DNA of 64,000 bases from Candidatus Electrothrix communis (GTDB lineage: Bacteria > Desulfobacterota > Desulfobulbia > Desulfobulbales > Desulfobulbaceae), in NCBI GenBank assembly GCA_030644725.1, contig CP130629.1, positions 2,334,795 to 2,398,794 of the forward strand, written 5' to 3'. Below are positions 137 to 57,142 of the stretch, in pieces. The position numbers and the translations under genes are program-made. Each line of letters starts with the position of its first letter. Positions within the stretch are counted from its first letter, which is position 1. Below the pieces are notes generated by a model. The model was not told where the DNA came from and searched no databases. It was given only the letters and a program-made list of their open reading frames with translations.

Positions 137-142
137 CGGAGG
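137..142 (+). promoter_or_regulatory. Ribosome binding site of the pentahaem cytochrome
   Basis: A GGAGG-type Shine-Dalgarno sequence lies about 9 bases before the ATG at 152. It fixes the start that yields a clean signal peptide. Confidence 0.7.
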
Positions 143-151
143 AAAACAAGT

Positions 152-1462
152 ATGAAAGCAGTAACTATGCTGTTTCGAACATGCTTGATACTCGGATGTA
201 TCATGCTGTTCACCCAACCTCTTGCGGCCGCAGAAAAAAGCAAAAAAGCCGACAAGAATCCCCACACCATTGCCACAAAAGAGGCTAAAACCATTGACGA
301 ACTCGTCGAAATGTTGGACGAGAAAAAATGTGGTTCATGCCACCCCGAAATCTACAAAGAGTGGGAAAAGTCCTGGCATGCCAAGTCTGTTACCTCTCCT
401 GGTGCCTTAAAAGGTATTCATAATTTCTTCGCCATCGGTCTTCCGAAGGAATGGAAAAAACCGATAACCAAGGCCGAAGTACTCAAATGTTATGACTGCC
501 ATGCCCCGGTGATCAACTATGCTTCTGAAGAGTTAGCCGTAGAGATAGCCGAGATGGTCATTACAGCCCATAAGGAAAAAGACAAACCGTCTGGCGAAAA
601 GGCCAAGAAAGAGCTGTCAAAACTGAATGTCGGCTGTGTTTCCTGTCATAACCTGAAGGCGATTTCTGTTGCCCGTGGTCTACGCGGAGACCCCAAGAAG
701 GGTGCCATCTACGGCCCCACCGGAGCCAACAGCGGCGGTGCTCATGAAACCATCGAGACCGTTGACATCACCCGTTCGGTCATGTGTATGCAATGTCACG
801 GCAAGTATACAGCACCGGACGGGGAGACCATCCAGTGTAACACGCTTTCCGGCAGCTTCCAGAACGCCTACCAAAACAACGGCGGCACCGAAACTTGTCA
901 GGACTGCCATATGGAAAAGGGCGGCAAGAACGGCAAGAAAAGCCATCTCTTCCCAGGCGGTCATGACCTGGATATGGTGAAAAAAGGGCTCGGACTAAAA
1001 GTCAATTTTGCTCAATATCGTCACCTGCCTGGTAAAATCAAAGGCGTGAAAAACGATAAGGCCTGGATACCCAGTGCGATAGTAACAGCCTTTGTCGAGA
1101 ACAAGGCGGGACATCGTATCCCGGACGGCTGACTGTGGTCAGGCAAAGTGGTCCTGGAAGTGACCGCACGAAATCTTGAAGAAAAAGACCCGAAAAAACA
1201 AGTACTCTATTCTGCACAAAAAACCTGGTTCGAGATCGGCGTTGATATGGACAGGGATATGCGCTACGGCGCTTGGCAGATCAAAGAAATCATTGATCTG
1301 ACCCTGCCCCCGAGCCAGACCCAGAAAGTAGAGCACCTTATGCACTTTGATTCAGATACCGAAGAGGTTGAGATCGAAGTTAAGCTGTTGTATTACATCA
1401 GCGGCGGAAAAGGTGATGTCATCTTTACCGAAAAGAAACAGTTCACCTATGAAATTGACTGA
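152..1462 (+). CDS. Periplasmic pentahaem c-type cytochrome, probable selenoprotein (in-frame TGA at 1130-1132)
   Basis: An exported multihaem cytochrome likely to carry electrons in the periplasm. The N-terminus is a signal peptide (about residues 1-26, ending AAA-E). Five CXXCH haem motifs are visible: CGSCH, CYDCH, CVSCH, CMQCH and CQDCH. The frame opened at 152 meets TGA at codon 327, directly after GHRIPDG, and continues without interruption for 109 more codons to the TGA at 1460. The downstream part is coding in character (KVVLEVTARN and a beta-rich end KKQFTYEID). Frame is kept across the TGA, so this is not an indel. Read through as selenocysteine, the product has 436 residues. From memory, and not checked, a Geobacter pentahaem cytochrome (ExtKL) is a selenoprotein of similar build. 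Alternatives are a nonsense mutation or a Cys/Trp codon misread. No sel genes lie in the window. Confidence 0.75.
1130..1168 (+). promoter_or_regulatory. Candidate bacterial SECIS element after the in-frame TGA
   Basis: Immediately after the TGA (1130-1132), bases 1134-1141 (TGTGGTCA) pair with 1161-1168 (TGACCGCA) to give an 8-bp stem with one G-U pair and a 19-nt loop. The loop contains GGTC, a feature also present in the E. coli fdhF SECIS loop. Bacterial SECIS elements sit just downstream of the UGA inside the coding region, as here. The lower stem is seen directly; SelB recognition is inference. Confidence 0.5.
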
Positions 1463-1536: not shown

Positions 1537-1575
1537 AAGGGCAAGACGATATATTCGCCTTGCCCTTGTTTTTTT
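1537..1575 (+). terminator. Rho-independent terminator downstream of the cytochrome
   Basis: An inverted repeat (AAGGGCAAG ... CTTGCCCTT) with a short AT loop is followed by a run of T residues at 1569-1575. A second smaller hairpin (GGAGGTC/GACCTCC) lies just before it. It closes the cytochrome transcript. Confidence 0.8.
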
Positions 1576-2812: not shown

Positions 2813-4453
2813 TCAAAGCCCTTGGCGGCATTCCATCCGCTGCTGGGCCCAAACAGCCAGCTTCTCTCTGAATATCTTGGCGTTATGACGGATATCCACC
2901 GGAAAGACAGCAAAAATCATAAAGGTCTCAATACTGTTCGTCAAGGGATTGGCGCGGGCTAACTGCTGCAACTCGGCACAAAGGCGCTTTTCATCTTTTG
3001 GCTTTTTCGCATACAGCTCAACCGTCAGAGCAGGTTGCTGCTTTCCCGGTTCCCCTAAACCGACCAGAGCGGAACGGAACACCTCGGGATGCTCGTTAAA
3101 GATGGCCTCACAGCAGATAGTGTACATGGGCCCCTTCTCCGTTAAGACCCGATGGGCCTTACGACCGCAGAACCAGAGCCGTCCCTGTTCATCCTGATAG
3201 CCCATATCTCCCATACGATGCCAAAGCCCATCCTGATCCGGGATCTTGGCCATGCGGGTTTCTTGCTCGTTATGATCATAGGCCTGGGTCACCACCGGTC
3301 CCTTGACCACAATCTCGCCGATACTGCCCTTTGGCAATACCTCAACTTCGTTCCAGGAAGACAACGGCCCATCAATGGGTTGAATAATCTCAACACGCAT
3401 TCCCGGCAAAGGTCGACCCACACAGGTGCCCTTGCCGATACGGGTCTGATCCCAAGTCTCCTCAAGGATTTCCCGCCCAGTGATGGAGGTGGAGGGCAGG
3501 CTTTCGGTGGCACCGTAGGGCGTATAGACTTCTCCATCCTCCGGCATAATGCGCTGCATCCGCTCAATCAACTCACCCGAAACCGGGGCTCCGGCCATGA
3601 GGACCTTGCGTACCGGCAGGGTGATATGCTGATCAATGCAGTAGCGACTGACTACATTCCAGATTGCTGGTGAACCAAAGGAATAAGTCACCTGCTTGTC
3701 CTGGATAGAACGGATGAACTTGGCTGGATCGACCTCTGCGGGACGGGTGGGATCCATATCCGGGATCACCGCAGCAGCACCAAGGGCGGTGGCAAAAAGG
3801 GCGAACAGGGGAAAGCCGGGCTGATCCACGTCCTCTGGCCCGATGCCGTAATAATCACGGATCTGTTGGAGCTGATGATAAAAAATGCCGTGGGTGTACT
3901 GGACGCCCTTGGGCGGACCAGTGGAACCGGTGGTAAAGATGATGGCGGCCAACTCGTCTTTTTCAGTATTTACGGCTGTGAATTCTGGACTGGCCTTGCG
4001 GGCTGCTCCTTTCATGGAAAGGCCGCAGAGGCCCAACGGATTCAGACCAACGCAGAAACGCCGCTCCACCGTGACAAAGGGTTGGCGAAACAGGCGAGCA
4101 AAGAGATGGACCTGGGGAATGGCGATCAGCACCTTAGGCTGGACAGAGCCGATGCAACGGAGCAGGTTCTTATAGCCCATGCCGGGGTCAATAAGAATCA
4201 CCACAGCACCCAGCTGAAACAGGGCATAGGTCAGGCAGATGAACTCCATTGACGGGCGCACCATGAGCATGACTCGGTCACCGCGCTGAACCCCACGTTT
4301 TTGCAGGGCATTGGCAGAGCGGTTGCTATTGGCCAACACTTCCTGAAAGGTCCATTGTTGATATGTGCCGTTCTTGCCGGTGACTAAGGCGACGGCGTCT
4401 TTCCGTTCCGCAGCGGCCTTGTGTAGGGCTGCGCCTATGTTGCAGTTGTTCAT
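2813..4453 (-). CDS. oleC: OleC-type AMP-dependent ligase (beta-lactone synthetase)
   Basis: Member of the acyl-adenylating superfamily, 546 residues. The ATP-binding P-loop (FTTGSTGPPKGVQYTH) is near residue 180, followed by the OleC-like stretch GFPLFALFATALGAAAVIPDMDP, by PYGATESLP and by GDMGYQDEQGRLWFCGRKAHR near the C-terminus. In known Ole pathways OleC adenylates the 2-alkyl-3-hydroxyalkanoic acid and closes a beta-lactone. OleA and OleB partners lie 25 kb away (30.5 and 28.9 kb); no OleD reductase is seen. The ATG at 4453 has only a weak ribosome site. An ordinary fatty acyl-CoA ligase is the alternative, but the aligned motifs and the presence of oleA/oleB favour OleC. Confidence 0.85.
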   Translation of the reverse strand: MNNCNIGAALHKAAAERKDAVALVTGKNGTYQQWTFQEVLANSNRSANALQKRGVQRGDRVMLMVRPSMEFICLTYALFQLGAVVILIDPGMGYKNLLRCIGSVQPKVLIAIPQVHLFARLFRQPFVTVERRFCVGLNPLGLCGLSMKGAARKASPEFTAVNTEKDELAAIIFTTGSTGPPKGVQYTHGIFYHQLQQIRDYYGIGPEDVDQPGFPLFALFATALGAAAVIPDMDPTRPAEVDPAKFIRSIQDKQVTYSFGSPAIWNVVSRYCIDQHITLPVRKVLMAGAPVSGELIERMQRIMPEDGEVYTPYGATESLPSTSITGREILEETWDQTRIGKGTCVGRPLPGMRVEIIQPIDGPLSSWNEVEVLPKGSIGEIVVKGPVVTQAYDHNEQETRMAKIPDQDGLWHRMGDMGYQDEQGRLWFCGRKAHRVLTEKGPMYTICCEAIFNEHPEVFRSALVGLGEPGKQQPALTVELYAKKPKDEKRLCAELQQLARANPLTNSIETFMIFAVFPVDIRHNAKIFREKLAVWAQQRMECRQGL

Positions 4454-4499
4454 AAAAAAAGCGGATATGAGTTTGGGTTAACATACTGCCCTTCAGCGT

Positions 4500-5561
4500 T
4501 CATTTTTTCTTTTCGTTTTCAGCTTGTTGTACCAGAAGGTCAAAATCGGATGTATACAGACGATCTTGGATGATCCGGTACTTTTCAAACTCACTTTCGG
4601 CATGGGCCTTGGCGATTTCTGCGGTGACCTTGCCTGCGTCCTGCAATATTTCCCGATCGGTTGCGGCGATGAAGCGGTTTAGGCGGGTTTCCCAATCCTG
4701 CATGGTCATGGGTATTTTGCGCAGTGCCATATCTTCAGCCACATCAAGATAGGCTGTCACCAGTCGCCGTAATTGCGCCATCTCGTGTGCAGTCAAGTAA
4801 TTCTTGGCCACGGAAACATCAAACTTCTGTATTTTCCCTTGAGGCGCATCCTTCCAGGTGGTCAACCCCATATTTTGCTTTTCTGCATCAGCGCGGTTGT
4901 AGACAACTTCCGCTGCGGTCTGTCCATGAATCGCCCAATGCAGCTTATTTTGCACGGTGGCAAAAAAACGCTTAGTGGCCTGTGCCGTCACATCGTAATC
5001 AATTGAGGTCGCATAGATATCGGTGATCTTTTGATAGAACTTTCGCTCGGAAAGGCGAATTTCCCGAATGCGCTCCAGCTGTTCTTCAAAGTATTGGTCA
5101 CTCAGGATGGAACCGCCACTCTTAAGGCGTTCATCATCCATTGTATAGCCCTTGATGGTAAATTCCTTAATCACCGTTGTTGCCCACTTACGAAACTGTA
5201 CAGCACGTTCGGAATTGACCTTGTAGCCAACAGCAATAATGGCGGCCAGATTATAGTGTTTGGTATTGTAGTTCTTGCCATCAGTGGCAGTTATCCGAAA
5301 ATTTTGGATAACTGAATTTTCTTCCAACTCACTATCATTAAATATTTTTTTCAGATGGTAATTGATGGTTCGCACATCTGCATCGTAAAGTACAGCCAGC
5401 ATTTTCTGCGTCAACCAAATACTTTCATCCACATAAACAGCCTCCACACCGCCTTCGCCGGTGGCTGCAATAAAAGTCAGGTACTCGGCAGTCGAAGAAC
5501 GAACGATGGATACTTCTTTTTTGCTGGTTTTCTGTTTGTTACGGCCAGTCATACTGCACAT
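4500..5561 (-). CDS. rhuM: RhuM-family protein
   Basis: About 353 residues, resembling RhuM proteins (first described on a Salmonella pathogenicity island, common in accessory DNA). Visible family features are a helix-turn-helix-like start (VDESIWLTQKMLAVLYDADVRTINYHLKKIF), the central block ITATDGKNYNTKHYNLAAIIAVGYKVNSERAVQFRKWA and the C-terminal Fic-associated half. Molecular function is not established; DNA binding is inferred from the N-terminus. The longer frame begins at a TTG (5606) with no ribosome site, so the ATG at 5561 (or 5552) is preferred. It lies alone, 46 bases upstream of oleC and on the same strand. Confidence 0.8.
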   Translation of the reverse strand: MCSMTGRNKQKTSKKEVSIVRSSTAEYLTFIAATGEGGVEAVYVDESIWLTQKMLAVLYDADVRTINYHLKKIFNDSELEENSVIQNFRITATDGKNYNTKHYNLAAIIAVGYKVNSERAVQFRKWATTVIKEFTIKGYTMDDERLKSGGSILSDQYFEEQLERIREIRLSERKFYQKITDIYATSIDYDVTAQATKRFFATVQNKLHWAIHGQTAAEVVYNRADAEKQNMGLTTWKDAPQGKIQKFDVSVAKNYLTAHEMAQLRRLVTAYLDVAEDMALRKIPMTMQDWETRLNRFIAATDREILQDAGKVTAEIAKAHAESEFEKYRIIQDRLYTSDFDLLVQQAENEKKK

Positions 5562-5660
5562 ACCTGGTTGGATTTTTTCTTCGGCAACGCTGCTCCGATA
5601 TTGCAAGTATTCATGAGTCTGCTGTGCTTGTAAAAGCGGTAATGATTACTTTAAGACGTT

Positions 5661-6831: not shown

Positions 6832-7919
6832 TTATGCGATGCAAACAGCTGGCCGGAGAGGAGGCGGCTTCCTCACCCTAGTCCGAATGATTTTCATTTC
6901 CGCCCCGCAGTTCGGGCAGATGATAGCAGCTTTTTTGGGTTGCTCAGCACTGAATAATGTAAACGGGTTGACCCTAAGCACCAGTTGGAGAAATCGGATG
7001 AGCTTTTTGCTGCACGGATGCAGAAAACCGTAACAGCGTGCCCTGCGAAACCCTTTGGGCAAGACGTGCAGCATGAGCAGAGAGAGGAATTCTTCTCCGG
7101 TCACCTCCCTGGACCTGTATTTGCCGGTTTTGGCGTGAAGATACCTGAAGGTAACCATGCCGTTTTCGCACTTCAGGATATCCTTTTCCTGAATTACGCC
7201 CCGGTAGAGATATTTGCCGAGATAGATGATCGCCTTGTCTCCGTTGCCGACGCTCTTGCAGTCGACAACCCACTTTTCCGGGCAATCCTTTGGCAGTTTC
7301 AGGCCTTGCTCAACTATGGCCGTAAGCATCTTTGCCCGAAAAACCTTTGCCAAGGCCTTGTGGTTAAAGAGGTATTCAGCCCCCTTTTTATGCCACAACC
7401 CTGTTTTTTGTTGATGCTTGCTCCGGGCATGACCACATGGATGTGGGGGTGATGATCAAGATTTCTTGCATGGGTATGGAGGATAGCGGTAAATCCCGCT
7501 TCTCCGCCGAGTTTTTTGTCATTTGCAGTAAAGGTTTTCAGAGTCTCTTTGACCGAAGCGAACATCTGTGAATAAACGATTTTCTGATTTCTCCAGGCAA
7601 GATCCCTGAGTTGAGCAGGCAGGGTAAAGGTAACCAGAAAATAGGGAGCCGGCAGCCGCTTGTTCAGTTGCTTTTCGATCCAGTTGCTGCTTTCATGGTT
7701 CTGACAGTGCGGACAGTTTCTATGGCCGCAGGAATGAGGAATATAGATTTCTGTTCCGCATTCATGGTTCGCACACCGCGCAAGCATCTGCAGGCTGTGT
7801 TCCGTCCTGCACTTGGCCATGGCCCACAGCGCTTTTTTGTGGCTGGGCAGAACGAAAGCCTGATATTGCGCTAAAAACTGTTCCTTGAATCGATTAATAA
7901 TCGTGGAGAGCAAAATCAT
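6832..7919 (-). pseudogene. IS91-family transposase, one apparent frameshift
   Basis: Rolling-circle (HUH) transposase with an N-terminal zinc-binding domain (CxxxxC...CGHRNCPHCQNHE), the HUH motif in HHPHIHVVMPG and a C-terminal half with GKYLYRGVIQ, including the probable catalytic Tyr region. The start used is the ATG at 7919, overlapping the recombinase stop. The frame changes at 7404-7409, a run of six bases; adding one base restores INKKTGLWHKKGAEYLF and a continuous 362-residue protein. The break is therefore probably a homopolymer error, although real inactivation is possible. Confidence 0.85.
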
Positions 7920-8824
7920 TTGACGCCCTCCCAAGTGATATCAAAGGTATCGGTCAGGGAGTTGACGGCCTGACGGGCGTTGCTGTTGGTGACAGCGGTA
8001 AGATGGGTATATCGGGATGTGGTCAGGATGCTGACATGACCGAGTATCTGTTGGAGTTCAACAAGGTCAACCCCGGCTTCCAACATATGGGTGGCATAAC
8101 TGTGGCGCAGGGAATGGCATGAGATTTTTTTATGTTGAGCTGTCCAACCACAGCCTTCATGGCAGCTTGAATACCTCCTCGATTTAAAGGCGTTTCAACC
8201 AAGTGGACGTTTTTCAGTCCCCGTTTCCTGTTTGGAAAGAGGAATTTGGGGTGCTGGTGAACGGACCAGAAATTTCTTAGAATCTGAAGGGTTTTTTCAG
8301 GCAAAGGAACCAGCCTGTCCTTGTTGCCTTTGGCGTCGCGAATGTGGACCCGCATATTGCTGGCGTCAATGTCGCTTGTTTTCAGGGCAATGCCCTCGCC
8401 GAGGCGCAGCCCCAGTGAGTAGGCTGTGAAAAAAAGACCTTGTAGCTCAGTTTGCCGGTGGCGGCAACCAGTTGATGGAGCTGCTCGACCGTGAGAATAT
8501 CTGGAATCCTTGAAACCTTGGGCGGTTTGATCAGGGGATATCCTCCCAGGTTCTGTTCAGCACCCTGGAATAAAAGAACTTCAGCCCATACAGGTCGAGC
8601 TTGACTGCGCTCCATGAGCGACAATCCAAAAGTTCGTTAAAGTAATCAAGGAGCTGGTCGGATGTGAGATTGTCGATTTGACACTCGAAATAATTGCCGA
8701 TTCGCCTGATCGACCGTGAATAGGCATCAATGGTCTTTGGTTGTAAGCCGTTAAGTTTCAGATGTTTGATATGTTTTTGATAAAGCAGATTGAAGTGTGG
8801 ATCGCTTGGCATCGTGCAGTTCAT
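7916..8824 (-). pseudogene. Tyrosine recombinase/integrase of the IS91 element, three apparent frameshifts
   Basis: XerD-like recombinase with an N-terminal SAM-like domain (LKLNGLQPKTIDAYSRSIRR), a catalytic Arg in GLRLGEG and the C-terminal box [15 protein letters not shown]...[14 protein letters not shown]. Three single-base losses interrupt it: G run 8534-8537, A run 8429-8435 and T run 8125-8131. Each sits in a homopolymer and each is repaired by one added base, giving 303 residues. The restored stop overlaps the transposase start, which supports the repair. Such recombinases accompany a subset of IS91 transposases. Confidence 0.85.
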
Positions 8825-50691: not shown

Positions 50692-50768
50692 TGGCGGGGC
50701 CGACGAGACTCGAACTCGCGACCTCCGGCGTGACAGGCCGGCATTCTAACCAACTGAACTACGACCCC
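50692..50768 (-). tRNA. tRNA-Asp (GUC)
   Basis: 77 bases including an encoded CCA. The acceptor stem GGGGTCG pairs with CGGCCCC, the anticodon stem-loop is CCGGC-CTGTCAC-GCCGG, and the T-loop GTTCGAG is intact. Confidence 0.95.
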
Positions 50769-50777
50769 TTAGTAATT

Positions 50778-50853
50778 TGGTGGGCGAAACAGGGCTCGAA
50801 CCTGTGACCCTCGGCTTGTAAGGCCGATGCTCTCCCAGCTGAGCTATTCGCCC
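50778..50853 (-). tRNA. tRNA-Val (UAC)
   Basis: 76 bases with CCA. The acceptor GGGCGAA pairs with TTCGCCC and the anticodon loop is CTTACAA. It lies 9 bases upstream of tRNA-Asp and is presumably transcribed with it. Confidence 0.95.
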
Positions 50854-57056: not shown

Positions 57057-57142
57057 TGGTGCGAAAGGGGGGAGTCGAACCCCCATGCACGAAGTGCGCT
57101 GGATCCTAAATCCAGTGCGTCTACCAATTCCGCCACTCTCGC
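57057..57142 (-). tRNA. tRNA-Leu (UAG)
   Basis: 86 bases with CCA and a long variable arm. The acceptor GCGAGAG pairs with CTTTCGC, and the anticodon loop ATTTAGG gives UAG. Confidence 0.95.

Follow-up and report, generated by a model that had tools for sequence, protein, structure and literature searches.

The window, a 64,000-nucleotide stretch of the Candidatus Electrothrix communis genome (contig CP130629.1), carries on its plus strand a gene that can be assigned with high confidence to the ExtKL/MccSep family of pentahaem cytochromes, with a selenocysteine at residue 327. The frame from 152 to 1462 codes for 436 residues, contains exactly one internal TGA (1130-1132, residue 327) and terminates at a further TGA (1460-1462), so that the sequence-only reading was exact in describing a single in-frame TGA that splits a 436-residue frame behind five CXXCH motifs.

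Organization of the gene and family assignment

The features of the gene are the following, all on the plus strand:

138-142, plus strand: probable ribosome binding site GGAGG, 9 nt 5' of the ATG (from the sequence)
152-1462, plus strand: gene for an ExtKL/MccSep-type pentahaem c-type cytochrome selenoprotein, with the TGA read as Sec (NF040886 match)
152-232, plus strand: probable signal peptide spanning residues 1-27 (the N-terminus is hydrophobic and runs up to AAA)
329-343, plus strand: haem motif 1, CGSCH, residues 60-64 (motif scan and homologue alignment, as for motifs 2-5)
377-379, plus strand: His76, candidate haem ligand (conserved; ligand role putative)
488-502, plus strand: haem motif 2, CYDCH, residues 113-117
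635-649, plus strand: haem motif 3, CVSCH, residues 162-166
785-799, plus strand: haem motif 4, CMQCH, residues 212-216
836-838, plus strand: Cys229, outside the haem motifs (kept in 71/71 homologues)
896-910, plus strand: haem motif 5, CQDCH, residues 249-253
944-946, plus strand: His265, candidate haem ligand (conserved; ligand role putative)
1112-1114, plus strand: His321 of the GHRIPDGU motif, candidate haem ligand (kept in 71/71; ligand role putative)
1130-1132, plus strand: TGA for selenocysteine 327 (homologue column, alignment to PDB MccSep)
1145-1168, plus strand: SECIS-type element, a codon-frozen stretch with a conserved hairpin (codon entropy, pairing counts, RNAalifold)
1537-1575, plus strand: probable intrinsic terminator, with a T run behind the inverted repeat AAGGGCAAG...CTTGCCCTT (read by eye)

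The protein matches the NCBIfam model NF040886, "multiheme c-type cytochrome (seleno)protein ExtKL", over residues 20-428 with E = 2.1e-126 and 421.9 bits, above the curated cut-off of 250 bits, and this bears out the likeness to Geobacter ExtKL that had been put forward; the Pfam matches are to general cytochrome models only. All five CXXCH motifs (starting at residues 60, 113, 162, 212, and 249) lie N-terminal of the TGA. In an alignment of 71 homologues, each covering most of the protein, the positions that are invariant or nearly so outside the haem motifs include His76, Tyr187, Cys229, His265, His321, Pro324, Asp325, and residue 327, which is Sec or Cys. The putative signal peptide makes export of the cytochrome to the periplasm probable.

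Decoding of the in-frame TGA as selenocysteine

The in-frame TGA almost certainly encodes selenocysteine, as had been proposed, since independent lines of sequence evidence agree, namely the homologue column, the SECIS-type element, the sel genes of the genome, and a non-standard residue at the equivalent column of the deposited protein MccSep. Specifically, when the suggested alignment of homologues was made, the column of residue 327 held TGA in 67 of 75 distinct homologues, a Cys codon (TGC/TGT) in 7, and Val (GTT) in the remaining one (L054), which has no internal TGA; the homologues extend to Nitrospirae and Thermodesulfatator. In MccSep, the residue aligned to the TGA is X (non-standard) in the wild type and A in the U325A mutant. 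Both halves of the frame had been described as likely to be coding, and Ka/Ks against three Electrothrix-group genes, at 0.06-0.14 on the 5' side of the TGA and 0.04-0.17 on the 3' side, confirms purifying selection on both sides of it. As a separate observation, one contig of another genome (G027, C12:96118-98740) carries two tandem copies of the homologue without an internal TGA.

The search for the selenocysteine genes, which had also been recommended, located all four components in the same genome: a tRNA-Sec at C1:4076592-4076685 (74.8 bits; anticodon tca by ARAGORN) and the genes for SelB at 1802525, SelA at 2461425, and SelD at 1791388. The SelD frame (C1:1791388-1792317; L074) has one TGA of its own near the N-terminus and reads RTCGUAAKIGPTDL across it, suggesting that SelD is probably itself a selenoprotein. 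Moreover, another SelD-like gene, this one with no internal TGA, lies at C1:1480453-1481394 in two pieces (L075, L076) that together score 255.9 bits, above the selD cut-off.

Decoding of UGA would need SelB, tRNA-Sec, and a short SECIS hairpin with its loop about 21-29 nt 3' of the UGA, and such hairpin-dependent decoding is strongly supported by sequence comparison. The conserved hairpin pairs GTGGTC (1148-1153) with GACCGC (1162-1167) around the loop CTGGAAGT (1154-1161) and lies about 15 nt downstream of the TGA. Among 35 diverse TGA genes, 91% of the cells in this helix are paired, three of its pairs carry changes at both positions, and none of 500 shuffles paired as well, whereas only 40% of cells are paired among the 7 Cys genes; judged from these alignments, the hairpin is kept in TGA genes and lost in Cys genes. 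The RNAalifold consensus of the 35 diverse sequences is the same helix, RNAalifold returned no structure on 64 sequences, and the support for the hairpin rests on the pair counts and on the contrast with the Cys genes. In addition, the codons 3' of the TGA are frozen in TGA genes only: the normalised codon entropy of conserved residues at +5 to +12 after the TGA is 0.11 versus 0.78 elsewhere in 19 close homologues and 0.32 versus 0.89 in all 67 TGA homologues, and no value as low as that of +5 to +12 appeared in 20,000 random draws of conserved columns. A single sequence that forms the hairpin is weak evidence by itself, because among 20,000 synonymous recodings that preserve the peptide, 9% make all six pairs (only about 3% fold as stably).

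The SECIS element had originally been placed in an 8-bp hairpin directly after the TGA. That helix (1134-1141/1161-1168, with GGTC in the loop) does exist in the sequence and is the minimum-energy fold of 1130-1175, the interval for which folding had been suggested, but its folding is no more stable than that of shuffled sequence (z -0.78), and it is paired in 50% of homologue cells and 48% in Cys homologues. It was therefore rejected as a conserved element, the conserved pairing being that of 1148-1153/1162-1167, while the broader expectation of a SECIS-type element 3' of the TGA, conserved together with it, holds.

Were the TGA a genuine stop, a 326-residue pentahaem cytochrome would be followed by a separate small gene (e.g. 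from the GTG at 1148 to 1462), which is exactly the pair of genes that standard ORF calling yields, and a two-gene structure was likewise given in the original Geobacter annotation and reported for an Electrothrix strain (PMC11976967). This reading is very improbable, as the stretch from the TGA to the GTG is conserved at the residue level, a start codon is absent from the GTG site in many homologues, the 7 homologues with a Cys codon read straight through, the freezing of the post-TGA codons is confined to TGA genes, and the relative MccSep is deposited as one selenoprotein chain; a separate downstream gene is rejected on this homologue comparison. A sequencing error or a pseudogene, which would look alike if there were one in-frame stop in one assembly, is the least credible reading and is refuted by the purifying selection on the two sides of the TGA and by its recurrence at this place in independent assemblies, which come from several Electrothrix genomes and from many genera.

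Distribution and significance in cable bacteria

The homologue of Candidatus Electrothrix aarhusensis is 89% identical to the window protein, and for most of about 11 kb the contig that carries it runs collinear with the window, with 82-88% identity at the DNA level. A homologue in a genome placed in the window's own genus shows the same identity and the same sequence around the TGA (L082 against L010), which together identify the window as DNA of a Candidatus Electrothrix cable bacterium. The gene is present in 4 of 8 Electrothrix genomes and selA in all 8, including two single-contig genomes that have selA yet lack the selenocytochrome gene. At the family level, matches above the cut-off occur in 33 of 74 genomes.

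Upstream of the gene lie a glycosyltransferase gene and gyrB, and downstream of it genes for an aldo/keto reductase and an AMP-forming ligase, all with names recognised from the sequence. Elsewhere in the window, an ORF at 4500-5606 on the minus strand is RhuM-like by eye and the E. aarhusensis contig has no sequence matching this region (window about 4453-5589), which is a probable insertion. At 6832-8824 (minus strand), a decayed mobile element consists of ORFs that look by eye like IS91-type transposases, next to fragments of a tyrosine recombinase. Lastly, genes for tRNA-Asp, tRNA-Val, and tRNA-Leu are found at 50692-50853 and 57057-57142, both on the minus strand.

A 2025 paper in EMBO Reports (PMC11976967) described, for an Electrothrix strain, a structural homologue of ExtKL with a "two-gene structure"; its text makes no mention of selenocysteine or selenoprotein, and a literature search combining cable bacteria and selenocysteine turned up a single paper, which was unrelated. 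One selenoprotein gene probably explains this published two-gene homologue, which amounts to a probable correction of the annotation. With the window gene, cable bacteria have a multihaem cytochrome that depends on selenium. In practical terms, peptides spanning residue 327 will be missed in proteomics, and a heterologous host that does not decode this UGA would lose the C-terminal domain.

Predicted fold and possible role of the selenocysteine

In the predicted model (pLDDT 79, pTM 0.75), the haem domain is helical and is followed by an Ig-like C-terminal beta domain, with the Sec in a turn between two strands of the beta domain, six residues after an invariant His. The model superposes on the pentahaem cytochrome c552 of Thermochromatium tepidum (PDB 5ze8) with Z 23.6 and rmsd 3.2 over 309 residues that span both domains, indicating the same fold over both, at about 20% identity. 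T. tepidum c552 differs in having Ala at the Sec/Cys column, and this residue together with the Val of L054 indicates that the fold works without Sec.

The N-terminal part carries five covalently bound haems. In the proposed mechanism, the haem chain would pass electrons to or from the selenol/selenolate of the Sec, which would be the group that reacts with a small substrate; a sulfur species or a chalcogen oxyanion, e.g. selenite, is a plausible one. Such a catalytic role is somewhat favoured, by analogy with Geobacter ExtKL, which is a candidate for selenite reduction in a cluster that the study of ExtI ties to selenite/tellurite reduction (PMC5877670).

Alternatively, and competing only with the catalytic part of this explanation, the protein may be an electron-conducting cytochrome of the periplasm in which the Sec is structural or takes part in electron transfer, by ligating a haem or by forming a selenenylsulfide with Cys229. 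This is a less likely but serious option. In its favour, Cys229 and residue 327 (Sec/Cys) are both invariant in the 71 homologues, and a likeness to archaeal cytochrome nanowires has been proposed for the pentahaem cytochromes of cable bacteria (PMC11976967). Against it, T. tepidum c552 appears to retain a Cys at the Cys229 position although it has Ala at the Sec column, so that the two do not always occur together, and selenocysteine is costly and usually catalytic. It is a distinctly improbable extension that the selenocytochrome belongs to the periplasmic conducting apparatus or feeds it, its selenolate acting as a redox switch that is haem-bound, directly haem-wired, or bridged to Cys229, and the patchy distribution of the gene relative to selA argues against an essential part of the conducting fibres.

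Comparison with known systems

In the PDB, the relative named "Multiheme cytochrome c selenoprotein (MccSep)" is represented by entries 9wt8, 9wt9 (U325A), 9wta, 9wtb, and 9wtc; it gives a full-length profile match to the Electrothrix protein (E about 1e-113), and the single-sequence similarity is moderate (131 bits). A literature search for a paper on MccSep found none, and Foldseek and VIA-align searches with the predicted model did not list these entries, which are probably newer than the structure library. Among cable bacteria, the small pentahaem cytochromes (sPHC; PMC11976967) come from the same organism group and are the reported structural homologue of ExtKL; the sPHC is presumably this very gene.

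The ExtKL of Geobacter sulfurreducens (GSU2937-GSU2936) likewise has five CXXCH motifs, then one TGA, then a C-terminal domain. It sits in the extHIJKLMNOPQS cluster (PMC5877670), whereas the Electrothrix gene does not: no porin (ExtI) or other cytochrome ORF was recognised within about 10 kb on either side, and cable bacteria are likewise described as being without the ext cluster setting (PMC11976967). The cluster is a genomic setting and not a requirement of the NF040886 model. Geobacter GSU2937 and GSU2936 were predicted as a selenoprotein in 2007 (PMC1914089), ExtKL is treated as a selenoprotein in PMC5877670 and PMC6148476, and the family is included in a 2026 review of prokaryotic selenoproteins (PMC13188914). 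The ExtKL selenoprotein family is thus already known, and the Electrothrix gene is a clear further member of it and no new kind of system.
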